Shown piece by piece: positions 29,097 to 45,797 of a stretch of 64,000 nt of DNA. Source of the stretch: Ignavibacteriota bacterium. Its GTDB lineage: Bacteria > Bacteroidota > Ignavibacteria > Tepidaquicellales > Tepidaquicellaceae. The notes under the pieces were generated by a model that was given only the letters and a program-made list of their open reading frames with translations, was not told the DNA's origin and did no database searches. How positions within the stretch are numbered: position 1 is the first letter of the stretch; each line of letters opens with the position of its first letter. The DNA lies in NCBI GenBank assembly GCA_016218085.1, contig JACREY010000020.1:1-64000 (forward strand). The letters run 5' to 3'. The position numbers and the translations under genes are program-made.

Positions 29097-29130
29097 ATTC
29101 AGGCGGATTAAGGTTATAATCCGCCTGAAT
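29097..29130 (+). terminator. Strong hairpin separating MFS gene from the glycan operon
   Basis: A perfect 14-bp stem ATTCAGGCGGATTA/TAATCCGCCTGAAT with a 6-nt loop is followed by ATTAAAATATTTTT. It lies 23 bp after the MFS stop and 14 bp before the sugar importer ATG. It could terminate the upstream unit or control entry into the N-glycan operon. Confidence 0.75.
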
Positions 29131-29144
29131 ATTAAAATATTTTT

Positions 29145-30524
29145 ATGGAAAATAATTCTACTGCCTCTCGATACACATCCTCGCTAGCGGTAATGATTTC
29201 ACTCTTCTTCATGTGGGGATTTATAACAAGTTTAAATGATGTTCTTACTCCGTTTTTAAAGGGGGTTTTCGAGCTTTCTCATTTCGAAGCGAACCTTGTG
29301 CAGTTTGCATTTTTCGGGGCTTATTTTATCGGTTCGATGATTTATTTTATATCATCTGTAACGATAGGTGACCCGATTGCGAGGATGGGATATAAAAACG
29401 GAATAGTATTAGGACTGATATTATCAGCAACCGGTTGTTTCCTCTTTTATCCTTCGGCTCATTACCAGTCATTCGGTTTTTTTCTTGGCGCGCTGTCTTG
29501 TATAAGCTTCGGACTTACCATTCTGCAGATTGCCGCGAATCCATATGTGGCGCTGCTTGGCAAGCCCGAAACAGCATCCAGCAGGCTTAACCTGGCGCAG
29601 GGATTCAATTCATTCGGACATACGATTGCGCCTGTGATAGGGGGCTTTCTGATTTTTAAATTTTTCCTGACTTCGGATAATCCCGGTGCGAATTCTGTCA
29701 AAGTACCTTACCTTATTTTCGGGGGAGCATTTTTACTGCTGGCGCTTTTCATTGCATTTGTTCATCTGCCGGCATTCACAGGACACGAAAAAATAGAAAA
29801 AAAACCTGAGGCTCTGAAGCATAGAAATCTTTTCTGGGGGATTTTTGCAATTTTCTTTTATGTTGGTGCTGAGGTTTCGATAGGAAGCAATCTTGTTGCT
29901 TACCTCAAGCTTCCCGATATTGCGGGACTTGCAGAAGCTGATGCGAGCAGGTATCTGGCATTTTACTGGGGCGGTGCAATGATAGGCAGGTTTATGGGTT
30001 CGATTTCATTGAGCGAGACAAAGGGAGTAAAAAAATATCTTTCCATGATGGCAGTAGCGATAGTTTTATTTGCGATAATTTTTCTCATAACAAAAATAGA
30101 GTTAGGGCTTGTTTGGTATTTCCTGATTTTTCTTGTAGTGAATTATTTTGCATTCATTCTGGGTAAATCTCTTCCTGCAAGAACACTAACGATTTTTTCT
30201 GTGTTTGTGATGGCATTGCTTCTGGTCGGGATTTTCGGAAGCGGAAAGCTTGCAATGTGGTCGATGCTCGGAATAGGAATGTTTAACTCGATTATGTGGT
30301 CGAATATTTTCACGCTTGCAATCGATAAGCTGGGGAAATACACTTCGCAAGGTTCATCTCTGCTGGTTATGATGATAGTAGGCGGGGCAATACTTCCGCT
30401 TCTGCAGGGAGCACTGGCAGATGCAACAAACGTGCATTATTCGCTCTTCGTGCCTTTGCTCGCTTACCTGTACCTGATATTTTACGGTGTTAAAGGATAT
30501 AAAATAAATTCTGCTGAAAATTAA
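29145..30524 (+). CDS. FucP/NagP-type sugar:H+ symporter (FHS family MFS)
   Basis: 459 residues with 12 helices. The start MISLFFMWGFITSLNDVLTP is the hallmark of the fucose/glucose/galactose:H+ symporter family, which includes the GlcNAc carrier NagP. ILQIAANPYVALLG and SRLNLAQGFNSFGHTIAP are further family motifs. It imports a monosaccharide across the inner membrane. As the first gene of a unit with a ROK kinase, a hexosaminidase, glycosylasparaginase and PNGase F homologue, GlcNAc or mannose is the likely cargo (inference). 13 bp to the next gene. Confidence 0.9.
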   Translation: MENNSTASRYTSSLAVMISLFFMWGFITSLNDVLTPFLKGVFELSHFEANLVQFAFFGAYFIGSMIYFISSVTIGDPIARMGYKNGIVLGLILSATGCFLFYPSAHYQSFGFFLGALSCISFGLTILQIAANPYVALLGKPETASSRLNLAQGFNSFGHTIAPVIGGFLIFKFFLTSDNPGANSVKVPYLIFGGAFLLLALFIAFVHLPAFTGHEKIEKKPEALKHRNLFWGIFAIFFYVGAEVSIGSNLVAYLKLPDIAGLAEADASRYLAFYWGGAMIGRFMGSISLSETKGVKKYLSMMAVAIVLFAIIFLITKIELGLVWYFLIFLVVNYFAFILGKSLPARTLTIFSVFVMALLLVGIFGSGKLAMWSMLGIGMFNSIMWSNIFTLAIDKLGKYTSQGSSLLVMMIVGGAILPLLQGALADATNVHYSLFVPLLAYLYLIFYGVKGYKINSAEN

Positions 30525-30537
30525 AATTATACAATAA

Positions 30538-31488
30538 ATGGATTTAGCAATCGGAATAGATATCGGAGGAACAAACACTGTTTTCGGACTTGTTGACAGG
30601 GAAGGCAACTGCATTGCAGAGGGTTCGATTAAAACCGACAGGCACGAAGACGTAAAAGAATTTGTGAAAGAGCTGTCCGATGAACTGAATAAAATAATTG
30701 CAGGGCTTGATAATGAATTTGATATTAAAGGAATCGGAATAGGGGCACCGAACGGAAATTACTTTAAAGGGACAGTGGAGTTTGCTCCGAATTTAAGATG
30801 GAAAGGTGTAATAAATTTTGCTGAATTATTTAAAGAACATTTCAGCTTTCCCGTGATACTAACCAACGATGCCAATGCTGCTGCAATCGGCGAAATGATT
30901 TACGGAGCTGCAAAGGGAATGAAGGATTTTGTTATCGTAACTCTGGGCACGGGACTTGGAAGCGGATTTGTTGCAAACGGCGAGATGATTTACGGGCACG
31001 ACGGGTTTGCAGGAGAGCTCGGGCACACGATAGTTTTTCACGACGGCAGGCAGTGCGGATGCGGCAGGAAAGGATGCCTGGAACAGTATGCATCGGCAAC
31101 GGGGATAGTAAAGACGGTGCTGGAGATGCTGGAGTCTACTGAAGAAGACAGCATTTTGAAAAACTACAAGCCCGAAGAAATAACATCAAAGCTGATTTAC
31201 GAAGCCGTTCAGCAGGGTGATATCGTGGCAATGGAAGCATTTGATTTTACAGGGAGAGTACTTGGGTTTGCACTGGCAAACACGGTTGCTCTTACGAGTC
31301 CTGAAGCAATAATCCTTTTCGGTGGACTTGCGCTCGCGGGAGAATATATTTTTAAGCCGACCAAGATGTACATGGAATATTACATGCTTAATATTTTCAA
31401 AAATAAAGTCAAACTGCTACCGTCCAAAATAGTCGGTAAGAATGCAGCTGTGCTTGGAGCCAGTGCTCTTGTCTGGAAAAATTCTTAA
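30538..31488 (+). CDS. ROK family sugar kinase (glucokinase/GlcNAc kinase type)
   Basis: 316 residues. The ATP-binding motif IGIDIGGTNT with Asp8, catalytic Asp111 in LTNDANAAAIGE, the sugar-contacting GELGH (Glu160, His163), and the zinc cluster CGCGRKGCLE (His163 with Cys173, 175, 180) are all present. It phosphorylates a hexose at O6 in the cytosol. ROK kinases use glucose, GlcNAc, ManNAc or mannose. The position 13 bp after a FucP/NagP-type importer and 14 bp before a GH20 gene favours GlcNAc or mannose released from N-glycans. Confidence 0.92.
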   Translation: MDLAIGIDIGGTNTVFGLVDREGNCIAEGSIKTDRHEDVKEFVKELSDELNKIIAGLDNEFDIKGIGIGAPNGNYFKGTVEFAPNLRWKGVINFAELFKEHFSFPVILTNDANAAAIGEMIYGAAKGMKDFVIVTLGTGLGSGFVANGEMIYGHDGFAGELGHTIVFHDGRQCGCGRKGCLEQYASATGIVKTVLEMLESTEEDSILKNYKPEEITSKLIYEAVQQGDIVAMEAFDFTGRVLGFALANTVALTSPEAIILFGGLALAGEYIFKPTKMYMEYYMLNIFKNKVKLLPSKIVGKNAAVLGASALVWKNS

Positions 31489-31502
31489 TAAAATAAATAA
31501 CA

Positions 31503-33776
31503 ATGAATAGTTTTAAGAAATTTTTTTTTGTTTTACTTTTAGTTGTTTTACCATCCTTCGTATATCCGCAAAATCCATGCATTATACCAGATCCGGTTAA
31601 ATTCGAATTAAAGGCGGGCAGTTTTGAGATAAATGAAAATACAGTGATTTCGGCAAACTGCGAAGAAGCATTTAATGATGCGGTAATTTTCAAGAAATAT
31701 ATAAAAGATTTATATGGATTGAATCTCAGGCTGGAAAATTCCAGAAGGAGAAGCAACTGCATATACATCGAATATGTTGTCCGTGCTGACATTCCCGAGG
31801 GTAGTTATGAATTGAATGTAAACCAGTTCGGTGTTGAAATTTCGGGAATGACTTATTATCACGGGTTACAGTCGCTCAAGCAGATGATTTTGAAAGCAAA
31901 AGGAACATTGATTGTTCCTAATCTTTATATCCTCGATTATCCGCGTTACAGTTACAGGGGAATGCATCTTGATGTATGCAGGCATTTTTTCCCGAAGGAT
32001 TTTGTGAAGAGGTACATTGATTTTCTAGCGATGTACAAAATGAATTATTTTCACTGGCACCTGACAGATGACCAGGCCTGGAGAATAGAAATTAAAAAAT
32101 ATCCGAAACTGACTGAAATCGGTGCGTGGAGAAAGGGAGTATTGACCGGCAGGTATAAAGATGTGTCAAGAGCAACCGATACCGTGAATTACGGAGGATA
32201 TTTCACGCAGGATGATGTCAGGGAAATTGTGAAGTATGCAGAGGAAAGGCATATCACCGTCATTCCCGAAATTGAGATGCCCGGACATTCGCTTGCGGCG
32301 CTAACAGGCTATCCCGAATATTCCTGCACAGGCGGGCCATTCGAGGTTGCCAGGGAGTGGGGAGTATTCGATGATATCTTCTGTCCGAAGGAAGAAACAT
32401 TTAAATTTCTGGAAGATGTCTTATCTGAGGTGGCAGAACTATTTCCGGGGAGATACATTCATATAGGCGGTGATGAAGCGCCGAAGGACAGATGGAAGAA
32501 TTGCAAGCATTGTCAGGAATTAATTAAGAAGGAAGGATTGAAGGATGAACACGAATTGCAAAGCTATTTTATTAAAAGAATAGAAAAATTTTTAAATTCA
32601 AAAGGCAAGGCGATAATAGGCTGGGATGAAATACTGGATGGCGGTCTTGCGCCAAATGCTACAGTAATGTCCTGGCGGGGAACGGAAGGCGGGATAGAGG
32701 CGGCGAAACAGAATCATAATGTAATTATGACTCCCGGCGAGTACTGTTACTTTGACCATTACCAGTCGGATCCAAGGAATGAACCGATTGCTATAGGCGG
32801 ATACACAACTTTAGAAAAAGTTTATTCATTCGAGCCGACACCTAAGGAACTGACTGAAGAACAACAGAAATATATTCTCGGGGCGCAGGCAAATGTCTGG
32901 ACGGAATATATAATTGAGCCCATGAATGTCGAGTACATGGTGTTTCCAAGGATTTGCGCCTTGTCAGAAGTGCTGTGGACACCGGCCGGTAAAAAGAACA
33001 ACACAGATTTCAAGGACAGGCTAAAAAGCCATTTCAAACTGCTTGATTTGCTCAAGATAAATTATTCTAAAGCCGTATATGATTTATCAGTAAAGTATTC
33101 ACAGCCGATAGATAAAAAAGGAATTGGAATAGAAGTCAATGCACCGTTTTCAAATTCGGAAATCTATTATACAACTGACGGAAGCGAGCCGGATTTAAAA
33201 TCAATTAAATATTCAGGGATATTTTCTGTGCTGAATTCGTGCACGATTAAAACTGCATATTTTGAAAATGGTAATAAGCAGGGGAATACATTTGTGCAGG
33301 AATTTAATATTAATTTGGCAACCGGCCAGAATATAACTCTGGTGACGCAACCGAGAAAAAGATACAGCGTAGGAGGGGCATTTTCTCTTGTGGACGGAAT
33401 AACCGGCAGGTTACCGTGGAGCGGAAGGGACTGGCTGGGATTTCTCGGAGATGATTTAAATGCAACAATAGAACTGAAGCAGGCAGAAGAAATATCGAAA
33501 GTAGTTGTCGATGTTTTGAATTCAGAGCAGAACTGGATATATCTGCCGAAAGAAATTGAAGTTTTTGTATCTACTGACGGAATAAAATTCGAATCAGTTA
33601 AGAAAGTTGAATGGAATTATATAAATAAATATGAAAGAAGCGTAGAGCTTACTTTTGATAAAGTGAAAACGAAATATGTAAAAGTTATTGCAAGAAATTT
33701 CGGAAAGATTCCTGCAGGCAATCCCGGTGAGGGAACCGATGCCTGGCTGTTTGTGGATGAAATATCAATTGAATAA
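31503..33776 (+). CDS. GH20 beta-N-acetylhexosaminidase with CHB and discoidin-like C-terminal modules
   Basis: 757 residues. A signal peptide precedes the GH20b domain (~30-140) and the GH20 barrel (~145-490) with SYRGMHLDVCRHFF, HWHLTDDQAWRIEIK and the catalytic Asp324-Glu325 pair in HIGGDEAPKDRW. These serve substrate-assisted removal of terminal beta-GlcNAc/GalNAc. After the barrel comes a chitobiase C-terminal-type segment (IYYTTDGSEPDLKS, ~550-600) and an F5/8-type discoidin-like module (~620-757, ending FVDEISIE). The GH92 enzyme further right has the same pair. The enzyme is predicted to act in the periplasm or at the surface on N-glycan GlcNAc. Confidence 0.95.
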   Translation: MNSFKKFFFVLLLVVLPSFVYPQNPCIIPDPVKFELKAGSFEINENTVISANCEEAFNDAVIFKKYIKDLYGLNLRLENSRRRSNCIYIEYVVRADIPEGSYELNVNQFGVEISGMTYYHGLQSLKQMILKAKGTLIVPNLYILDYPRYSYRGMHLDVCRHFFPKDFVKRYIDFLAMYKMNYFHWHLTDDQAWRIEIKKYPKLTEIGAWRKGVLTGRYKDVSRATDTVNYGGYFTQDDVREIVKYAEERHITVIPEIEMPGHSLAALTGYPEYSCTGGPFEVAREWGVFDDIFCPKEETFKFLEDVLSEVAELFPGRYIHIGGDEAPKDRWKNCKHCQELIKKEGLKDEHELQSYFIKRIEKFLNSKGKAIIGWDEILDGGLAPNATVMSWRGTEGGIEAAKQNHNVIMTPGEYCYFDHYQSDPRNEPIAIGGYTTLEKVYSFEPTPKELTEEQQKYILGAQANVWTEYIIEPMNVEYMVFPRICALSEVLWTPAGKKNNTDFKDRLKSHFKLLDLLKINYSKAVYDLSVKYSQPIDKKGIGIEVNAPFSNSEIYYTTDGSEPDLKSIKYSGIFSVLNSCTIKTAYFENGNKQGNTFVQEFNINLATGQNITLVTQPRKRYSVGGAFSLVDGITGRLPWSGRDWLGFLGDDLNATIELKQAEEISKVVVDVLNSEQNWIYLPKEIEVFVSTDGIKFESVKKVEWNYINKYERSVELTFDKVKTKYVKVIARNFGKIPAGNPGEGTDAWLFVDEISIE

Positions 33777-33792
33777 TTAAATATAAATAATT

Positions 33793-34773
33793 ATGCAAAG
33801 TAGAAGACAATTCATCAAAATTTCCGCTTTGACGGGGGCATTGCTTCCTTTCTTAAAAGTTAAGGGATTCGGTAAGTCAGTTTCAGGCAGAAAAGGAGCT
33901 AAGCCGATTGTGCTTTCGACGTGGCATTTCGGAGTGCCTGCTAACGAAGAAGCATGGAAGGTACTGAACAGCGGTGGATGGGCTCTGGACGCAGTGGAAG
34001 CGGGCGTTAGGATTCCGGAAGGGGATCCGAAAGTAATGTCAGTAGGATATGGCGGACTTCCCGACAGGGACGGACACGTGACGCTCGATGCCTGTATTAT
34101 GGATGAAAACCTGAATTGCGGCTCTGTGGCATTTCTCGAAAATATAATGCATCCAATTTCAGTGGCAAGGCTCGTGATGGAAAAGACTCCTCATATAATG
34201 ATAGTGGGTGAAGGCGCATATCAATTTGCAATTCAACAGGGTTTTAAGAAAGAAAATCTTCTAACACCTGAGGCAGAAAAAGTTTGGAAAGAGTGGATGA
34301 AAAATTCGGGATATAAGCCGAAAATTGATGATGCAAATCACGATACAATCGGTATGATTGCACTTGATTCTGGCGGAAGACTTTGCGGAGCCTGCACTAC
34401 AAGCGGTTTAAGCTGGAAGATTCACGGAAGGGTTGGTGATTCCCCGATAATCGGTGCAGGTCTTTATGTCGACGGAGAAGTCGGTGCGGCTACATCTACA
34501 GGAATCGGCGAAGAAGTTATTCGAATTTCCGGTACACATCTCGTAGTGGAATTGATGAGGCAGGGAAGGACTCCTCAGGAAGCCTGCGAGGAAGCTGTAA
34601 ATCGAGTTGTTAAAAATAAAAGGAATAAAATTGATTCTGATTTTCAGGTCGGATTTCTTGCATTAAATAAAGACGGAGAATACGGTGCTTATGCAGTTAA
34701 CAAGGGTTTTCAGTATGCCGTCTATTCAAAAGAGGAAAATAATATTTTAAAGGATTCGAAAAGCCACATTTAA
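33793..34773 (+). CDS. Glycosylasparaginase (N4-(beta-GlcNAc)-asparaginase), Tat-exported
   Basis: 326 residues. The enzyme splits the GlcNAc-Asn bond left after glycoprotein digestion, giving Asp and GlcNAc-amine. It is an Ntn hydrolase. Self-cleavage is expected between Asp184 and Thr185 in ANHDTIGMIA, freeing Thr185 as nucleophile. HGRVGDSPIIGAGLY and the GAATSTGIGEE stretch line the site, and SVGYGGLPDRDG is the family motif of the alpha chain. The N-terminus SRRQFIKISALTGALLPF is a twin-arginine (Tat) signal, so the folded precursor is exported. It lies 16 bp after the GH20 gene and 4 bp before cutC. Confidence 0.93.
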   Translation: MQSRRQFIKISALTGALLPFLKVKGFGKSVSGRKGAKPIVLSTWHFGVPANEEAWKVLNSGGWALDAVEAGVRIPEGDPKVMSVGYGGLPDRDGHVTLDACIMDENLNCGSVAFLENIMHPISVARLVMEKTPHIMIVGEGAYQFAIQQGFKKENLLTPEAEKVWKEWMKNSGYKPKIDDANHDTIGMIALDSGGRLCGACTTSGLSWKIHGRVGDSPIIGAGLYVDGEVGAATSTGIGEEVIRISGTHLVVELMRQGRTPQEACEEAVNRVVKNKRNKIDSDFQVGFLALNKDGEYGAYAVNKGFQYAVYSKEENNILKDSKSHI

Positions 34774-34777
34774 TACA

Positions 34778-35401
34778 ATGATTGTTAAATATGAAATTGC
34801 TTGTTTCGATTTTGAGTCGGCAATGCTTGCCCAGAAAGCAGGTGCAGACAGGGTAGAGCTTTGTTCCAATCAGCCTGAAGGCGGAGTTACTCCATCTTAC
34901 GGATTAATTGACCTTGCAAGAAAAAATCTTCATATTGATTTAAATGTTATAATTCGTCCGCGCGGAGGGAATTTCGTTTATACTGATTCTGAACTGAACA
35001 TTATGGAAAACGATATTCTGGTTTGCAAGGAGCTTGGAATAAACGGAGTTGTATTCGGAGTATTGAATGAAGATAAGACGATTGATAAAACTGTAAACTC
35101 TGAATTAGTACAGATTGCATCTCCGTTGGCAACAACATTTCACCGCGCATTTGACGAAACTCCCGATGCAATGAAAGCACTGGAAGATGTGATTGACTGC
35201 GGGTTTACAAGGATTCTTACCTCCGGGCAAAAAATATCGGCAATAGAGGGAACAAAACTTATTTCCGGACTAATTGAAGCCGCCGGACAAAAAATAATCA
35301 TAATGCCGGGCGGAGGCATAAGGAAAGAAAATATAAAAGAATTAATACAAATTACAAAAGCCAAAGAATACCATTCATCATCGACGGGGATAATAAAATG
35401 A
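34778..35401 (+). CDS. cutC: CutC family TIM-barrel protein
   Basis: 207 residues, a little shorter than E. coli CutC (about 250). Family motifs are clear: EIACFDFESAMLAQKAGADRVELC at the start, NVIIRPRGGNFVYTDSE, FHRAFDETPD, RILTSGQ, and GGGIRKENI. CutC was named for copper homeostasis, but its biochemical role is uncertain. Here it sits 4 bp after glycosylasparaginase and overlaps the PNGase F-like start by 4 bp (ATGA), and no copper gene is in view. This context suggests a role in the sugar or amino-sugar chemistry of the locus (inference). Confidence 0.9.
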   Translation: MIVKYEIACFDFESAMLAQKAGADRVELCSNQPEGGVTPSYGLIDLARKNLHIDLNVIIRPRGGNFVYTDSELNIMENDILVCKELGINGVVFGVLNEDKTIDKTVNSELVQIASPLATTFHRAFDETPDAMKALEDVIDCGFTRILTSGQKISAIEGTKLISGLIEAAGQKIIIMPGGGIRKENIKELIQITKAKEYHSSSTGIIK

Positions 35402-37053
35402 AAAAAATATTTTTACTGGTATTATTTTTACTGCCGCAGGTAATTTATTCTGCCTCAGGCGATACGGTTATTGTTCAGACATTTACCTTCAAAGACTTAT
35501 TCAAGAGGAGAGGTATTTTCCAGTTTCCAAATCAGAATGAGCGCTGGTCAAAAATAATTATGGTAAGAACTCTTAAATGCGACTGGGACACAAAGCACGA
35601 TAAATATCCCTGCGGAGAGTGGGATTACACAACCAATACGCTTGTGTATGTACCCCGCTTTGCAGGGGACACAGTTAAGGAAATATTTGAACTTGAAAAT
35701 TTTGTAACGCCGTACGGCAAGAGGCTTGACCTTAACGGAGAAAAAGGCTGGTCGTATTTTTACGATGTAACAGATTATGCCCCGCTGCTGAAAGGTGATG
35801 TTGATTTATCTTCGGGCAATCTGCAGGAGCTGCTCGATATGAAGTTTATTTTTATTAAGGGTGTGCCTGCTCGAGATGTGATTGCAATTGAAAATATTTA
35901 TCCGTGGGGGATGTATAAATATTACGATCTGGCAGATAATAAAAAACTACCTGATAAGAATTTGGTTCTAAGAAAAGATGCCAAAGGATACAAGCTGAAA
36001 GCAAGAATCACGGGGCACAGGGAAGTAGGGCCATATGCCTGCTGTGAATGGGACAGCAAGCAGATGAAATACACATACGGGAATTCAGAAGGCAGAATGA
36101 CAATTGCGTACTGGACGGTATGGAAAGACTGCAGCCGCAATCCGGTTTATCCTCAGGGAGGAACCTGGCCTTTTGACAGAGCGGGGTGGTGTCCCGGTTC
36201 TCCTGCACAGACATTTGAATTCGATATTTCTAATTTATTCAATCCCGGCGATACGATTCAGAATTTCGATTACGAAATCCAGCCTTATTCAGGCAACGGT
36301 GAGAAAGACGGGGAGTTTGTGGAATCGCACCAGATTGTTTATTACGGTCCGCCGAATTTCAGCAACGATGCATCTGTTGATGATATAATTGCTCCGAATA
36401 ATTACGAAGGTTACAGAAGGGATAATCCGGTTTGCGGAAGCCCGATAATTATTATTAAAAATAACGGTTCGAATATTCTTCAGACTGCTATTATAATTTA
36501 CGGGCTTTCAGACAGAAAGAAATCGGAATATAAGTGGAGCGGGTATCTGAAGTTTCTTGAAACTCAGGAAGTGTACCTCCCGATGCCTGACTGGGGCGGG
36601 ATTTCGGAAGGCAGTACATTTACGGCGGAGATATTAAGCCCGAATAATATGAATGATGAAAACGCTTCAAATAATCTTTTCACATCTGAAGTATCGGTTC
36701 CGGCGGAATTGCCGAATAAATTTATTTTACATATAGAAGCCAATGATCTTGGCAGGGCAAAGGAGAATGCTTATTTTATATTCGACGGACAGGGGAAAAT
36801 ATTTTTTGAAAGAAAGGAATTCGAGGATAATGCAATATACTCTGATGAAATCAACCTTACGGGCGGATGTTACTTATTGCTGATAACAGACAAGCAGCGG
36901 GACGGAATGATGAAGCACTGGTGGGAGCGGGCGCATCCCGAGAGAATAGGAAAAAACGGCAGAATATTTTTAACAAATACATCAGGTGACACACTGCGGA
37001 AATTCCCTTATGATTTCGGTGCAGAGTTAAGATTTTGTTTCAGCGTAAGATAA
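35398..37053 (+). CDS. PNGase F-like peptide-N-glycanase, secreted
   Basis: 551 residues with a signal peptide (IFLLVLFLLPQVIYSAS). PNGase F releases intact N-glycans by hydrolysing the GlcNAc-Asn amide on peptides. Residues matching the Elizabethkingia enzyme are visible: Asp76 in CGEWDYTTN (its Asp60), Glu217-Trp218 in CCEWDSKQ (its Glu206-Trp207), and RAGWCPGSP with Trp264 (its RAGWCPGM). A counterpart of its Glu118 is not clear by eye. Beyond ~residue 330 there are ~220 extra residues of unrecognised beta-rich sequence. Translation is coupled to cutC. The convergent lipoprotein gene begins 3 bp after the stop. Confidence 0.85.
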   Translation: MKKIFLLVLFLLPQVIYSASGDTVIVQTFTFKDLFKRRGIFQFPNQNERWSKIIMVRTLKCDWDTKHDKYPCGEWDYTTNTLVYVPRFAGDTVKEIFELENFVTPYGKRLDLNGEKGWSYFYDVTDYAPLLKGDVDLSSGNLQELLDMKFIFIKGVPARDVIAIENIYPWGMYKYYDLADNKKLPDKNLVLRKDAKGYKLKARITGHREVGPYACCEWDSKQMKYTYGNSEGRMTIAYWTVWKDCSRNPVYPQGGTWPFDRAGWCPGSPAQTFEFDISNLFNPGDTIQNFDYEIQPYSGNGEKDGEFVESHQIVYYGPPNFSNDASVDDIIAPNNYEGYRRDNPVCGSPIIIIKNNGSNILQTAIIIYGLSDRKKSEYKWSGYLKFLETQEVYLPMPDWGGISEGSTFTAEILSPNNMNDENASNNLFTSEVSVPAELPNKFILHIEANDLGRAKENAYFIFDGQGKIFFERKEFEDNAIYSDEINLTGGCYLLLITDKQRDGMMKHWWERAHPERIGKNGRIFLTNTSGDTLRKFPYDFGAELRFCFSVR

Positions 37054-37056
37054 AAT

Positions 37057-37731
37057 TTACCTTGTAGGATTTGTATTGAAAAATCTGTTGATTATCTGAG
37101 CATCTCCGTGTCGTTCTGTACTAGTGAACATAATCGAGCCGTCAAGAGATTTATCCTCTCCCAATAATGTTGTATTCACGCTTATTGTACCTTCTATTGT
37201 TTCTGCATTTGCCAGATAAACAAATGCTTTGTAATCAATTGGGCACATTACGTCGCAGTAATAGTATCCGTTTTTATAACCGTATTCAGCGCTGTAAAGT
37301 CTCGGTATGTATCGGACTTCCGCCTTGTCAATATTAAGTTCGATAACATGTTTTCCGTTTACAAGTAAATCGAGCTGTTCTTTTAGAGGTTTTGTAATTC
37401 TTTCCAGTCCCTTTTTCTTTTGAGTTATTCTAACGGTATAGAAATATGATGTATCCGCAGATGCATCGTCGTTTATCTTAAGAATTTTAGTGAAGTTACT
37501 TGTGATGACAGGCTCATCGAGTATGTTAATTCCGGCATAATCTGCCTTTGTCTCGTACATTTCGACCTGGTAATAATAAGTGGAATCTGTCTTGCCTTTA
37601 AATCTTCCGTGGCTTTCATTCCAGAATTCATCATCACTCATATCCCTGTAGTTAGCAGAGCATCCGTTTAAAAGAATTACGGTAAAGGCAGAAATCGCTA
37701 ATAAAAAGCATAAAGAAATGTTCTTTTTCAT
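37057..37731 (-). CDS. Hypothetical lipoprotein
   Basis: 224 residues. A lipoprotein signal ends in LLNGCSAN (Cys24), followed by an Asp/Glu-rich stretch. The rest is predicted mostly beta, without known motifs. It lies on the opposite strand between the two halves of the N-glycan locus, with only 3 bp between its stop and that of the PNGase F-like gene. No terminator is seen in that gap, so transcripts may overlap. Not recognised. Confidence 0.7.
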   Translation of the reverse strand: MKKNISLCFLLAISAFTVILLNGCSANYRDMSDDEFWNESHGRFKGKTDSTYYYQVEMYETKADYAGINILDEPVITSNFTKILKINDDASADTSYFYTVRITQKKKGLERITKPLKEQLDLLVNGKHVIELNIDKAEVRYIPRLYSAEYGYKNGYYYCDVMCPIDYKAFVYLANAETIEGTISVNTTLLGEDKSLDGSIMFTSTERHGDAQIINRFFNTNPTR

Positions 37732-37918
37732 TTTACCCCCAAAGCATTATAAATTGTTATGCAAATCTAACAATAGAAATCAAATTAAAAAAGAGAAAAT
37801 GAATATTATTATACGGGAACAATTGAGGATTTTATTTGTTTAAAATATTAATAAGAAATAATTTATATTTTTTATTGTTTTCGAAATAAATATTTTGTTA
37901 AAAATATTAATATTTTTT

Positions 37919-38386
37919 ATGAAAAAACTACTTTTATCCTTAATAATTTTGTTGAGTTTGCAGGTAAAATCATATTCACAGGAAAGCGGTCTTGGCGTAG
38001 GAATAATGATAGGGGAACCCTCCGGGCTTTCATTTAAAAAATGGATTAACAGTTCGAATGCGATAGACGCAGGACTCGGCTGGTCTTTCTCCGAAGACGG
38101 TTCAATACATTTTCATGCGGATTATCTTTATCATAATTTTGATTTAATAAAAATATCCGATGCGAAGGTTCCATTTTATTTCGGAGTCGGCGGCAGGTTT
38201 AAATTTAAGAACGAGAAAAAATCGGTTGGCAACAGCATAGGAGTGAGGATTCCTGTGGGAGTTTCCTATCAGTTTGCAACTGCACCATTCGATGTTTTTC
38301 TGGAAGTCGTGCCGATTCTGGATTTGAGCCCTGATACAAGGGTCTCATTTAACAGCGCTCTGGGAGTCAGGTATTATTTCAAATAA
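37919..38386 (+). CDS. Small outer-membrane beta-barrel-like protein
   Basis: 155 residues if started at this ATG; an upstream TTG would add 8, but the signal peptide (MKKLLLSLIILLSLQVKSYS) fits the ATG best. The mature part alternates polar and hydrophobic residues with GLGVGIMIGEPSGLSFK, VPFYFGVGGRFKF and a terminal VRYYFK ending in aromatic-Lys, typical of small eight-strand barrels. No enzyme motif. Its place between the PNGase F-like gene and the beta-mannosidase hints at a role in the glycan locus, but this is weak. Confidence 0.7.
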   Translation: MKKLLLSLIILLSLQVKSYSQESGLGVGIMIGEPSGLSFKKWINSSNAIDAGLGWSFSEDGSIHFHADYLYHNFDLIKISDAKVPFYFGVGGRFKFKNEKKSVGNSIGVRIPVGVSYQFATAPFDVFLEVVPILDLSPDTRVSFNSALGVRYYFK

Positions 38387-38464: not shown

Positions 38465-40996
38465 TTGCATCATTATAAAAGCCTCATAATCAAGCTTTTC
38501 ATATTTGTTTTTCTTCTTAATGTAAATTCATATTCCCAGACAGTTACAAAGCTGAATTTAAGCTCGGGCTGGCAGTTCAGGGAAAGCGGAAAAAGCGAGT
38601 GGCTGACTGCAAATGTCCCCGGTACCGTTCACACCGACCTGCTTCAGAATAGAATTATCGGCGACCCGTTTTTCGGAAGTTATGAAACTTCACTTCAGTG
38701 GATTGAACAATCCGACTGGGAATACCAGATGGTTTTTAATCTCAGCGAAGAGATATTTTCTCAGCAAAACATAGAACTGAATTTTGAAGGGCTGGATACA
38801 TATGCCAGGGTATATCTGAATGATTCGCTGATAATCGATGCGAATAACATGTTCAGGATATGGTCAGCTGAATGTAAATCAAAACTGAAAAAGGAAAATA
38901 ATAAATTATTTATAATTTTCAGCTCTGCTGTAAAGATAACAGACAGTATTGCATCAGTTTCGCCTTTGAGTTTACCCGGCGGAAACAGTGTTTACGCAAG
39001 AAAAGCCCCGTATCATTTCGGATGGGACTGGGGTCCGAGGTTTGTAACCTGCGGAATATGGCGACCTGTCTATATTTCGGCGTGGAGCGACCTGAGGATT
39101 GAAGATGTTGCTTTCAGGCAGACAAGCATTTCACCGGAAAAGGCCGAAGTTAATGTATATTATTTCTTGAATTGCTATAAGAGGGATTTATATACCATAT
39201 CCGTAAGAGATATTTCCAATACAATTACATACGGTGAAAAGACTGACTCGATGTTCGAGGGATATAACCTGGATGCATTCGATATTAACCTGTACAATCC
39301 GCGCCTGTGGTGGACTAAAGAGCTGGGCTCACCCGAACTGTACTCTTTCCGTTTCGAGGTTAAAAAAGGAAAAAATGTAATCGATGAAAAAATATTTAAT
39401 ATCGGAATCAGGAAAATTGAACTAATCCGCGAGAAAGATTCCATTGGGGAAAGTTTTTATTTTAAGCTGAACGGTATTCCGCTTTTTATAAAAGGAGCTA
39501 ATTACATTCCACAGGATAATTTCCTTTCCCGTGTCACAAAAGAAAAATATAAATCCTTGATAGAAAATTGCAACAGGTCTAATATCAATATGTTAAGAGT
39601 ATGGGGAGGAGGAGTTTATGAGGATGATGAATTTTACAGTCAGTGCGATGTTAACGGAATTCTTGTATGGCAGGATTTTATGTTTGCGTGTGCGATGTAT
39701 CCGGGCGACGGGAAATTTCTTGAAAACGTAAGGAAGGAAGCTTTTCAAAATGTTTCGCGACTTAAAAACCATCCATGCATAGCTTTGTGGTGCGGGAATA
39801 ATGAAATCGAAGAAGGATGGAATAACTGGGGCTGGCAGAAACAGTTCGGGTATTCGAAAAAAGATTCTTCAAAGATTTGGAATGATTATGAGATGATTTT
39901 TAAAAAGATTTTGCCGGAGGTTGTAGGTTCAGTATCGCAGCATCAGAATTATATTTCCACGTCACCCAAAATCGGCTGGGGGCATCCGGAAAGTCTCAGG
40001 GAAGGCGATTCGCATTACTGGGGAGTCTGGTGGGGGAATGAGCCTTTTGACACTTATAAAAAGAAAGTTCCGAGATTTATGAGCGAGTACGGATTCCAGG
40101 GATTTCCAGATTTCAAAACAATAGAATCTTTTACGTTACCCGAAGACCGTTCTTTATATTCAGATGCATTGAAAACTCATCAGAAGCATCCTGCCGGCTA
40201 CGAGACAATCCGGAAATATATGGAAAGAGAGTACACAGTTCCGGATAATGCGGAGGAATATGTATACATATCACAGCTTTTGCAGGCGTATGGAATTCAG
40301 ACTGCAATTGAATCTCACAGACGCTCAAAACCGTACTGCATGGGAACTCTGTACTGGCAACTGAATGACTGCTGGCCGGTTGTATCCTGGTCGGGGATTG
40401 ATTACTACGGAAGATGGAAGGCGATGCAGTATTTTGTAAAAGATGCTTATAAAGATATTCTGGTCTCTCCCATAACAGAAAATGATTCGGTAAAAATATT
40501 TATCGTATCTGACAGGAGGTATCCCGCATCGGGGAATCTGAAAGTCAGTTTGAAGAATTTTTACGGGAAAGTAATTTCAGAAAATAATATTAATATTACA
40601 TTCAAAGAATTCAGCAGCGGAATTTATTTCAGCGATGCAAAAGCAAACTTGTTAAACGGATTAAATGCAAATGAAGTCGTATTGACTGCTAAATTAGAAT
40701 TGCCTGAAGGCGTGGAATACATTAATAACTTATATTTTTCATTACCGAAAGAATTAAAATTACCCGAATCCCCCGAAGTAATATTTGACTTAAAGAAAGA
40801 AGGAAATTATATTAAAGCAATTATAAGTTCTGATAAACTGGTAAAAAACTTATTCATTTATTCAGATGAAGACCTGGAATTAAGCAATAATTATTTTGAC
40901 TTAATTCCCGGTGAAGGAGAGTATATTTATATAAAAACAGATCTTGAAACCGGAGAGCTAATGAAAAAAATTAAATACAAATATTTAAACAAGTAG
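38465..40996 (+). CDS. GH2 beta-mannosidase, secreted
   Basis: 843 residues. A signal peptide (LIIKLFIFVFLLNVNSYSQ) precedes the jelly-roll domain (LSSGWQFRESG...VPGTVHTDLL), the Ig-like domain and the TIM barrel. The acid/base is Glu447 in LWCGNNEIEEGW and the nucleophile Glu541 in PRFMSEYGFQG. KAPYHFGWDWGPRF and the NNEIEEGW form are characteristic of GH2 beta-mannosidases (MANBA type). It would remove the beta-1,4-mannose of the N-glycan core. The start is TTG, without a clear Shine-Dalgarno site; an in-frame ATG further up runs into a stop. Confidence 0.93.
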   Translation: MHHYKSLIIKLFIFVFLLNVNSYSQTVTKLNLSSGWQFRESGKSEWLTANVPGTVHTDLLQNRIIGDPFFGSYETSLQWIEQSDWEYQMVFNLSEEIFSQQNIELNFEGLDTYARVYLNDSLIIDANNMFRIWSAECKSKLKKENNKLFIIFSSAVKITDSIASVSPLSLPGGNSVYARKAPYHFGWDWGPRFVTCGIWRPVYISAWSDLRIEDVAFRQTSISPEKAEVNVYYFLNCYKRDLYTISVRDISNTITYGEKTDSMFEGYNLDAFDINLYNPRLWWTKELGSPELYSFRFEVKKGKNVIDEKIFNIGIRKIELIREKDSIGESFYFKLNGIPLFIKGANYIPQDNFLSRVTKEKYKSLIENCNRSNINMLRVWGGGVYEDDEFYSQCDVNGILVWQDFMFACAMYPGDGKFLENVRKEAFQNVSRLKNHPCIALWCGNNEIEEGWNNWGWQKQFGYSKKDSSKIWNDYEMIFKKILPEVVGSVSQHQNYISTSPKIGWGHPESLREGDSHYWGVWWGNEPFDTYKKKVPRFMSEYGFQGFPDFKTIESFTLPEDRSLYSDALKTHQKHPAGYETIRKYMEREYTVPDNAEEYVYISQLLQAYGIQTAIESHRRSKPYCMGTLYWQLNDCWPVVSWSGIDYYGRWKAMQYFVKDAYKDILVSPITENDSVKIFIVSDRRYPASGNLKVSLKNFYGKVISENNINITFKEFSSGIYFSDAKANLLNGLNANEVVLTAKLELPEGVEYINNLYFSLPKELKLPESPEVIFDLKKEGNYIKAIISSDKLVKNLFIYSDEDLELSNNYFDLIPGEGEYIYIKTDLETGELMKKIKYKYLNK

Positions 40997-42881: not shown

Positions 42882-45797
42882 ATGAAAAAAATATTATTCT
42901 TCATTCTGATATTTGCTTATACTGCCTGTGCGCAGGATTTGACAAAGTATGTTAATCCGTTTATCGGCACGGGAGGACACGGTCACACATATCCCGGAGC
43001 TGTTATGCCGTTCGGAATGGTTCAACTTAGTCCCGATACAAGACTCGAAGGCTGGGACGGCTGCTCGGGCTATCATTATTCCGATAATGTGGTTTACGGT
43101 TTTTCCCATACGCATTTGAGCGGAACCGGGTGCTCGGATTACGGAGATATTTTACTGATGCCTACAATCGGAGATGTGAAATTCAAAAACAAAGAATATT
43201 CATCCGAATTTAGTCATTCAAATGAATCGGCAGCACCTGGTTTTTATTCCGTGTTTTTATCGAAATATAATATATCAGTTGAGTTGACCGCAACGAACCG
43301 TGTTGGATTTCATAGATATAAGTTTCCCGAATCGAATTCAGCTAATGTAATTCTTGATTTGGTTCACAGGGATGAAGTTTTGGAATCATCTATTCAGATT
43401 ATCGGCAATGATGAAATCTGCGGACTAAGACGCTCGAAAAACTGGGCGAAAGACCAGTTTGTATATTTCTGCATAAAATTCTCGAAGCCCTTTAAAAGAT
43501 GCGGAATTGAAGATAACGGTAAGTTGCTATCAGAGGTACTCGAAGCAAATAGCAAATCACTTAAAGCATTTGTTACATTCGATACAAAAAAAGATGAGGA
43601 AATCCTTGTGAAAGTCGGGATATCGGCAGTGAGCGTGGATGGTGCACGTTCTAGTATGATAACGGAAATTCCTGACTGGAATTTCGAAAAAGTAAAGAGC
43701 AATGCAAATTCAGTTTGGAATAAAGAACTCGGAAAAATTCTTGTCGAAGGCAGTAATGAAGACACGAAAACGATTTTCTATACAGCATTATATCACTGCA
43801 TGGTTGCCCCGAATCTGTATGCCGATGTTGACGGGAGTTACAGGGGAAGGGATTTGAAGGTGCATAAAGCGGAAGGATTCGATAATTATACTGTATTTTC
43901 ATTATGGGATACATACAGGGCAGAGCATCCTTTGCTTACAATCATTGACCAAAAGCGGACGAATGATTTTGTAAATACATTCATAGCTCAATATGAGCAG
44001 GGTGGGCTTCTTCCGGTATGGGAGCTTTCCGCAAACGAAACTTTCTGTATGATTGGTTATCACGCAGTTCCCGTGATTACGGATGCTTATGTTAAAGGCA
44101 TAAGGGGTTTTGATGAAAGGAAGGCATTCGACGCAATGAAACACAGCAGTGAAACAAACCTTTTCGGGCTTGAAAGTTACAGGAATCTCGGATATGTATC
44201 GCAGGATAAAGACCACGAATCGGTTTCAAAAACTCTTGAATACGGATATGATGACTGGTGCATAGCGCAGTATGCAAAGGAATACGGAGCCAAGGAAGAT
44301 TATAAAACGTATATCCGCAGGGCGCAGAGCTATAAAAATCTTTTTGACCCTTCGACAGGATTTATGCGCGCAAAGATAAACGGAGAGTGGTGGTTTCCGT
44401 TTGACCCAGCGGAAGTAAATAATAATTATACTGAAGCAAATGCCTGGCAGTACAGTTTTTACGTTCCTCAGGATATAAGGGGGCTTGCAAACTATTACGG
44501 AGGAAAGAAATACTTTGAACAGAAACTCGACGAGCTATTTACAACTGATTCAAAAATGTCAGGAAAGGATTTATCCGATATCACCGGTATGATAGGGCAA
44601 TATGCCCATGGAAACGAGCCTTCGCATCATATGGCATATCTTTACAATTATGTAAACGCACCCTGGAAGTCACAGAAGCTGGTGCACAAAATCCAATCAG
44701 AGTTTCACAAAAACGACCCGGACGGATTAATAGGAAATGAGGATTGCGGTCAGATGTCTGCCTGGTATGTGATGAGCGCAATGGGATTCTATCCTGTATG
44801 TCCGGGACAGTTGCAATATGCTATCGGGACACCGGTTTTCGATAAAGTGACAATTAACCTTGAAAACGGAAAACAGTTTGTGATTAAATCAGAAAATGTA
44901 GCAGAAAAAAATTATTATATACAATCCGCAAAATTAAATGACAAGGCATACAGCAAATGCTATATAAATCATTCTGACATTATGAACGGCGGTGAATTAA
45001 ATTTTATGATGGGCGAAAGAGCAAATGAAAAATGGGGAAGCGGCGACCTCGATGTTCCTCTTTCGACTATAAATGATGAGCAGATTAATCCCGTACCATT
45101 TATTGTTTCGGACAGCAGGAATTTCAAAAAGTATATGTTCATAATACTGAAGTCTATCGATGAAGATTCAAAAGTTTATTATACGCTCGACGGCTCGGAG
45201 CCGACTTTAAATTCGGATATATATACAAAACCGGTAAGACTTGACAATACCACAACAGTAAAAGCATTTGCATATAATAATGTACTCGGAAAGAGCAGGA
45301 CAATAGAAGGGAAATTCACGAAGATTCCCGAAGGAAGAAGCATAAAGTTGATTTCAGCATATAATCCCCAGTATCCCGCAAGCGGTAATGAAGCCCTGAT
45401 TGATTTTGAAAAAGGCGGAAAGAACTGGCGGCTTGGCGGCTGGCAGGGATTCCTCGGAGTGGATTTCGAGGCAATAATAGATTTGGGCAAGGTACAATAT
45501 GTTAAAAAGGTTTCACCCGAATTTCTGAGTGATGTCGGTTCCTGGATTTGTTTTCCGACGCTTATAGAGGTCGAGATTTCTGAAAACGGAAAAGATTTTG
45601 TTAAAGCAGGATTTATTCTATCCGAAGTTGATTTAAAACTAAAATCAAGAGTTGAAATCAGCAGTTACGATGTTATGATTAATAAAGACGCCAGATATTT
45701 AAAAATCAGGGCAAAGAACTACGGAAAAATGCCTGCCTGGCATCCCGGAGCAGGTGACCCGGCGTGGATATTTATTGATGAAATAGTAATTGAATGA
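42882..45797 (+). CDS. GH92 alpha-mannosidase with CHB and discoidin-like C-terminal modules
   Basis: 971 residues with a signal peptide. The GH92 N-domain opens with YVNPFIGTGGHGHTYPGAVM and GYHYSDNVVYGFSHTHLSG. The catalytic domain shows NYTEANAWQYSF (Glu518, a likely acid), YAHGNEPSHHMAYLY and GLIGNEDCGQMSAWYVMSAM. These are Ca-dependent exo-alpha-mannosidases acting on high-mannose N-glycans; alpha-1,2 is the commonest linkage, but specificity is not proved here. The C-terminus has VYYTLDGSEPTLNS (CHB-like) and a discoidin-like module ending FIDEIVIE, the same pair as the GH20 enzyme. It follows a 298-bp divergent gap with no ORF (small palindrome CCCC-TTATA-GGGG at 42655-42667). Confidence 0.95.
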   Translation: MKKILFFILIFAYTACAQDLTKYVNPFIGTGGHGHTYPGAVMPFGMVQLSPDTRLEGWDGCSGYHYSDNVVYGFSHTHLSGTGCSDYGDILLMPTIGDVKFKNKEYSSEFSHSNESAAPGFYSVFLSKYNISVELTATNRVGFHRYKFPESNSANVILDLVHRDEVLESSIQIIGNDEICGLRRSKNWAKDQFVYFCIKFSKPFKRCGIEDNGKLLSEVLEANSKSLKAFVTFDTKKDEEILVKVGISAVSVDGARSSMITEIPDWNFEKVKSNANSVWNKELGKILVEGSNEDTKTIFYTALYHCMVAPNLYADVDGSYRGRDLKVHKAEGFDNYTVFSLWDTYRAEHPLLTIIDQKRTNDFVNTFIAQYEQGGLLPVWELSANETFCMIGYHAVPVITDAYVKGIRGFDERKAFDAMKHSSETNLFGLESYRNLGYVSQDKDHESVSKTLEYGYDDWCIAQYAKEYGAKEDYKTYIRRAQSYKNLFDPSTGFMRAKINGEWWFPFDPAEVNNNYTEANAWQYSFYVPQDIRGLANYYGGKKYFEQKLDELFTTDSKMSGKDLSDITGMIGQYAHGNEPSHHMAYLYNYVNAPWKSQKLVHKIQSEFHKNDPDGLIGNEDCGQMSAWYVMSAMGFYPVCPGQLQYAIGTPVFDKVTINLENGKQFVIKSENVAEKNYYIQSAKLNDKAYSKCYINHSDIMNGGELNFMMGERANEKWGSGDLDVPLSTINDEQINPVPFIVSDSRNFKKYMFIILKSIDEDSKVYYTLDGSEPTLNSDIYTKPVRLDNTTTVKAFAYNNVLGKSRTIEGKFTKIPEGRSIKLISAYNPQYPASGNEALIDFEKGGKNWRLGGWQGFLGVDFEAIIDLGKVQYVKKVSPEFLSDVGSWICFPTLIEVEISENGKDFVKAGFILSEVDLKLKSRVEISSYDVMINKDARYLKIRAKNYGKMPAWHPGAGDPAWIFIDEIVIE

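Follow-up and report, generated by a model that had tools for sequence, protein, structure and literature searches.

We propose that the CutC protein encoded in this Ignavibacteriota genome works in the cytoplasm as a TIM-barrel enzyme in the catabolism of N-acetylglucosamine (GlcNAc), here as part of a locus for the utilisation of N-glycans and glycoproteins, and we assign this reading a probability of roughly 0.7. The genes, their spacing, their linkage and the intact residues of the protein are read from the sequence; the cellular location, the enzymatic nature and the pathway step are what we infer from these. That is, the recurrence of a pairing between glycosylasparaginase (GA) and CutC across bacteria suggests that CutC is probably an enzyme of GlcNAc use and not a copper protein. 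An earlier note on this DNA had suspected an unrecognised job in amino-sugar metabolism, such as handling the GlcNAc-amine released by GA, and the suspicion holds in part: cutC is strongly enriched next to GA in Bacteroidota and certain Pseudomonadota, and in Alphaproteobacteria next to genes of GlcNAc catabolism, but GlcNAc operons that carry CutC with no glycosylamine-producing amidase in view also exist. In the open-licence literature we found no paper that assigns CutC to amino-sugar metabolism, and a paper on L. sakei mentions CutC solely as a regulated protein.

The window (i.e., the whole stretch of 64,000 nucleotides that was analysed) carries, all on the + strand, a GluP/NagP-like MFS sugar transporter (29145..30524; TIGR01272 gluP, 275 bits, above cut-off), a ROK-family sugar kinase (30538..31488; PF00480, E 2e-64), a secreted GH20 beta-hexosaminidase with an N-terminal signal peptide (31503..33776; PF00728, E 1e-127), GA with a Tat-like RR signal and the catalytic Thr185 (33793..34773), CutC (34778..35401; PF03932, E 1.8e-70; 207 aa, a short form without the C-terminal extension) and a secreted PNGase F-like amidase extended by ~240 aa at its C-terminus (35398..37053; PF09113, E 6e-8), followed downstream in the same locus by a GH2 beta-mannosidase-type enzyme (38465..40996; PF22666, PF17786, PF17753) and a GH92 alpha-mannosidase (42882..45797; PF07971, E 5.5e-186). 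Amidase, mannosidases, hexosaminidase, transporter and kinase, the genes that together mark an N-glycan utilisation locus, are thus all present, although the best NCBIfam match of the kinase, ROK_glcA_fam, scores below its cut-off and leaves the GlcNAc and glucose types unsplit. The tight spacing described in the earlier note is exact to the base: GA ends at 34773 and CutC begins after 4 nt at 34778, and the stop codon of CutC (TGA, 35399-35401) shares an ATGA (35398..35401) with the start of the PNGase F-like gene. A strong 14-bp inverted repeat (a palindromic hairpin, 29097-29130) lies between the GluP-like gene and a second MFS gene upstream of it and is likely a terminator and unit boundary; hence, the genes from 29145 to 37053 may form one transcription unit. 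CutC is present in a single copy in the source genome, and a second GA with 59% identity to that of the window is found on a contig without CutC (G000:C22:34600-35520).

Judged by its sequence, the gene upstream of CutC is a true glycosylasparaginase, since it scores 443 bits against the Flavobacterium GA structures (1p4k/9gaa) and only 140 against isoaspartyl peptidases, and keeps intact the autocleavage motif HDT185IG(M) of the Ntn-hydrolase glycosylasparaginases. The protein encoded downstream matches solved PNGase F (3pms/1pnf) over residues 51-308 (E 3e-13). CDEWD and CAEW of 3pms, which would carry the catalytic Asp60 and Glu206 of PNGase F, line up with CGEWD and CEW in this protein; the equivalent of Glu118 is not clear, and the ~240 residues C-terminal of the homologous region gave no match in a Pfam scan. 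The coupling of CutC to PNGase F, on which the earlier note leaned, is real in the window but uncommon elsewhere, being direct in only one other locus, that of an Ignavibacteriae metagenome-assembled genome (L198:7986-10442), with one gene between in a third (L083); the recurring partner is GA. In the Ignavibacteriae locus the PNGase F-like gene, 68% identical to that of the window, lies within a few nt of CutC, and no GA adjoins.

How often GA accompanies CutC, the kind of count that the earlier note had proposed as a check, was assessed in the window's phylum, Bacteroidota: CutC scored above cut-off in 124 genomes of a 396-genome sample, and 115 CutC-centred regions were analysed. The check came out positive: GA lies inside 52 of these regions (tblastn) and is by far the commonest neighbour, being within 2 kb of CutC in 51 loci that span 11 of 24 families and 33 of 71 genera. 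When 1,596 predicted proteins were clustered without bias, GA again formed by far the commonest neighbour family (52 loci, with the runner-up at 14). Of the 107 CutC genes that could be placed, 44 have GA as their direct upstream neighbour, and GA shares the strand of CutC in 43 of 51 loci, while chance adjacency, by the argument of ~2 slots among ~3,500 genes, should amount to roughly 0.06% of genomes. At the level of whole genomes, GA (E <= 1e-60) is found in 105/124 CutC-bearing vs. 61/272 CutC-free genomes (Fisher p 1e-32, confounded by shared ancestry), a conservative count because this threshold missed several GA genes that adjoin CutC (e.g., in G218, G222, G236, G262 and G475); a GA protein served as query instead of PF01112 because the latter mixes plant-type asparaginases with GA.

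Consistent with these counts, an independent scan of named genomes recovered GA in 41/80 loci, all but one on the same strand and upstream, and three Chitinophaga loci repeat the set of the window (GluP-ROK-GA-CutC, with GH20 nearby). In 78 same-strand pairs (including a few duplicates) GA and CutC are a median of 26 bp apart, 42 pairs lie within 30 bp or overlap, and an overlap was called in 20, several of them of -4 or -1, although start codons were picked for minimal gap, a choice that biases the distances downwards, and one of the values is artefactual. This spacing, as read from predicted genes, suggests translational coupling. A Hymenobacter plasmid carries GA and CutC with a 4-nt overlap and then GH92. 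A GH20-GA-CutC-GH2 block also appeared in an assembly titled as a Bifidobacterium breve metagenome-assembled genome (L180), with identities typical of Flavobacterium loci, and is probably a mis-binned contig.

Beyond Bacteroidota, CutC occurs in 26/219 genomes of a Pseudomonadota sample, and in three of these GA precedes CutC on the same strand (with a spacing of -4 in L294 and L297, and with one gene between in L309), with GA adjacent but divergent in a fourth (L306); for L294, L297 and L306 the positions were verified from tblastn coordinates since gene calls in these high-GC loci contained shadow ORFs. The order in L309 is F5/8-domain protein-BadF kinase-GA-GH85 endo-hexosaminidase-CutC-GH2 mannosidase-sodium symporter (SSS)-GH92, with gene ends that largely abut or overlap, and its gene content is that of a locus for high-mannose N-glycans that includes CutC. 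Other Pseudomonadota have SIS-ROK-NagA-like-CutC (L308) and ROK-CutC (L293). Among plasmids, that of Sinorhizobium has amidase-ROK-CutC beside nagA, SIS, a GlcNAc kinase and MurQ; that of Qingshengfaniella has MurQ-ROK-CutC-Gfo/Idh-ABC; those of Peteryoungia and Loktanella share SDR-GH20-M81-MFS-CutC, with nagB in Loktanella; two Paracoccus plasmids carry ROK, SIS and CutC-Gfo/Idh-ABC, one of them with both nagA and nagB; and that of Kozakia carries nagA-GluP-ROK together with ROK regulator-CutC-GH20-nagB. In these alphaproteobacterial plasmids CutC thus sits in GlcNAc operons with no GA in view. CutC adjoins a BadF kinase in Asticcacaulis and two Pseudoalteromonas, Alkalihalophilus has aminopeptidase-CutC-fucosidase-ROK, and a ROK gene is nearby in Palleronia.

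These links are not universal. CutC has no GA, nag or kinase link in Cetobacterium, two Enterococcus, a Parabacteroides plasmid and Entomospira, and among 18 plasmid regions with gene tables, hand-picked mostly for their annotation and with Enterobacteriaceae records left out (i.e., not a random sample), eight carry GA, nag, MurQ or GH20 genes, five a sugar kinase only and five neither. In most of the sampled Pseudomonadota, GA and nag neighbours are absent and contexts vary, some being E. coli-like with YecM adjoining, and in most of the GA-free Bacteroidota loci CutC is surrounded by housekeeping genes. Four loci (L286, L287, L290 and L292) are of this enterobacterial type, with CutC near YecM (Pfam-confirmed in L286) and no GlcNAc genes, and three of the four carry a gene of ~577 aa, the size of argS; as far as gene order tells, CutC-YecM is a separate conserved context outside the GlcNAc genes. 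A Chromobacterium class sample and a Chloroflexi sample yielded only 4 and 3 CutC genomes above cut-off, respectively, too few for statistics.

In the protein itself, the PF03932 match (236.9 bits) covers positions 2-201 of 202, while PRK11572, the NCBIfam model of E. coli-type CutC, scores 214.6 bits, below its cut-off of 311, and its match stops at model position 200 of 248; the window's CutC thus differs from the E. coli type in its length (207 aa vs. 248 model positions), in having no C-terminal extension and in its N-glycan locus. It shares 46% identity with CutC of humans and 42% with that of Shigella (TM 0.93-0.95), and its AF2 model (pLDDT 96.8) superposes on known CutC structures (human 3iwp, Shigella 1twd/1x7i, S. 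agalactiae 2bdq and B. anthracis 4r9x, all PF03932) with TM 0.91-0.95. All residues conserved in at least 85% of 111 CutC sequences are kept, including R25, E27, C29, R60, R62, H122, D126, S149 and H199; E27, R60, R62, H122, D126 and H199 are invariant, S149 and Cys29 nearly so, and G150 and G180 also belong to this invariant or nearly invariant set. In the model, E27, R60, R62, H122, D126, S149, G150, G180 and H199 lie at the C-terminal ends of, or just past, strands 2, 3, 5, 6, 7 and 8. Active sites of TIM barrels lie at this end of the barrel strands, and the predicted arrangement is more typical of an enzyme than of a metal carrier. The nearest folds outside the family include DERA, PRPP-bound MJ1099, PriA, tryptophan synthase alpha and Pdx1, more distant barrels many of which handle phosphorylated substrates. 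The loop that follows strand 7, MPGGGI, is similar to loops that bind phosphate, so the substrate of CutC may be phosphorylated. The similarity to DERA raised the possibility of a class I aldolase mechanism, which was rejected because CutC lacks an invariant lysine. By inspection, signal peptides are present in GH20, GA and the PNGase F-like protein and absent from CutC, which should therefore be cytoplasmic and act after import.

Under the model that we favor, the secreted PNGase F-like, GH92, GH2 and GH20 enzymes would trim the glycan, periplasmic GA would cleave GlcNAc-Asn, GluP would import the amino sugar, the ROK kinase would phosphorylate it, and CutC would act in the cytoplasm on an intermediate that derives from GlcNAc. 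What the contexts have in common is GlcNAc that reaches the cytoplasm beside a kinase. Regarding the step itself, it is possible, although at less than even odds, that CutC acts generally on GlcNAc or GlcNAc-6-P (e.g., as an anomerase, an epimerase/isomerase or in the removal of damaged amino-sugar phosphates) and is recruited to loci with a high flux of GlcNAc, with GA being merely the commonest source of GlcNAc in Bacteroidota. The alphaproteobacterial nag operons with ROK, NagA, SIS and NagB, the BadF and ROK kinases that adjoin CutC or lie near it, and the phosphate-binding TIM barrels among its nearest folds are all consistent with such a role; however, this role alone does not explain why the linkage to GA is far tighter than that to GH20 or ROK in Bacteroidota.

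Alternatively, our best guess at a single reaction, and a tentative one, is that CutC hydrolyses the C1 glycosylamine that GA and PNGase F leave behind. CutC would then be the missing glycosylamine hydrolase that converts 1-amino-GlcNAc (or 1-amino-GlcNAc-6-P) to GlcNAc and ammonia, speeding up a reaction that is usually regarded as spontaneous. Both flanking genes, GA and PNGase F, release glycosylamines; three GA-free loci have genes for RidA-type imine/enamine hydrolases in the vicinity of CutC; and a study of L. casei considers 1-amino-GlcNAc not metabolizable and invokes acidic spontaneous decay instead (PMC6960285). That same spontaneous decay means that an enzyme for GlcNAc-1-amine is not strictly needed. 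Further, glycosylamine clearance in the cytoplasm would suit the window and its GA-linked relatives but fits less well with the nag operons that have no glycosylamine-producing amidase in view, which makes the broader role on GlcNAc or GlcNAc-6-P at least as likely; GlcNAc-amine may also not be the sole substrate, since CutC is found in E. coli, Enterococcus and other bacteria with no GA or GlcNAc context. Also counting against this reaction, 61 of the 166 GA-bearing Bacteroidota genomes have no CutC. The widest form of this idea, which we regard as doubtful, holds that from bacteria to humans CutC disposes of the N-acetylglucosaminylamine, or of the phosphate of this amine, that glycosylasparaginase and PNGase set free; if it does, human CUTC would have a role next to AGA and NGLY1 and not in copper handling.

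A role in copper homeostasis, with CutC placed in glycan operons by happenstance, is what the name implies and what the annotation of the family says from bacteria to humans, and we consider it very unlikely. In its favor, knock-down of CUTC in worms and HepG2 cells leads to higher copper sensitivity (PMC11083455), and Cys29 is near-invariant. On the other hand, the copper sensitivity of E. coli cutC mutants was traced in 2019 entirely to loss of the sRNA MicL (PMC6538781), which leaves the CutC protein without a settled function, and in a 2024 review the binding of Cu+ by human CUTC is weak and a function as a chaperone is considered improbable (PMC11083455). The genomic context points the same way, in addition to the recurrent linkage to GA and nag genes. 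A Pfam scan of roughly 30 ORFs of the window returned no copper-related family, in agreement with the earlier note's remark that no copper gene was in view, and the HMA (copper ATPase/chaperone) matches of the source genome lie on contigs C12 and C18, the window being on C15. Among the 25 commonest families of the 111 immediate neighbours of CutC in GA-free loci there is no copper family, while GH20 and GH2-mannosidase genes appear three times each. A MicL-like RNA feature inside the cutC gene was also considered and rejected, with no Rfam family at threshold across 30000-38000.

Finally, that GA and CutC are a neutral, co-inherited neighbourhood without shared function is hardly credible: the GA-adjacent label is indeed clustered on the maximum-likelihood CutC tree (at least 16 changes vs. 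a shuffled mean of 36), but at least 12 of these changes are forced by well-supported branches, meaning that the link was repeatedly lost and/or regained, the pair recurs in Pseudomonadota with spacing suggestive of translational coupling, and nag linkage arises in lineages that have no GA beside CutC. Such turnover extends to the window's own family, where the closest CutC relative (L031, 59% identity) adjoins a MurI-like gene and not GA, so the arrangement of the window was gained or lost within the family.

With respect to known systems, one that is close to the GlcNAc-catabolic locus proposed here is the flavobacterial glycoprotein degradation of Elizabethkingia, which uses the same two amidases, glycosylasparaginase and PNGase F, that flank CutC in the window; it differs in that CutC is not named as a pathway member in the open-licence literature found. 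The alf-2 pathway of L. casei for fucosyl-GlcNAc-Asn shares an MFS transporter, a glycosylasparaginase, a sugar kinase and a 1-amino-GlcNAc product, but its GA is intracellular, CutC is not among the listed cluster genes and the amine decays spontaneously (PMC6960285). The nix/nag clusters of Xanthomonas are likewise N-glycan degradation loci; the paper that describes them keeps CutC as a copper-resistance protein and gives it no pathway function, although its STITCH network lists CutC and the asparaginase XAC3092 as predicted partners of VirK (PMC5700972). The linkage of CutC to GA in Bacteroidota and some Pseudomonadota, and to nag genes in Alphaproteobacteria, offers a specific and testable class of substrates. 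If the GlcNAc reading is true, the annotation of a widespread family would be corrected, a step in bacterial glycoprotein catabolism filled and a function for human and worm CUTC suggested.

Two further kinds of neighbour recur. A Gfo/Idh/MocA oxidoreductase gene often abuts CutC outside Bacteroidota (L250, L252, L314 and L319), several times with 4-nt overlaps, and RidA, a Rid-family hydrolase, lies near CutC in L185, L251 and L317; together, the Gfo/Idh/MocA and Rid-family neighbours provide a second hint to the chemistry of CutC.
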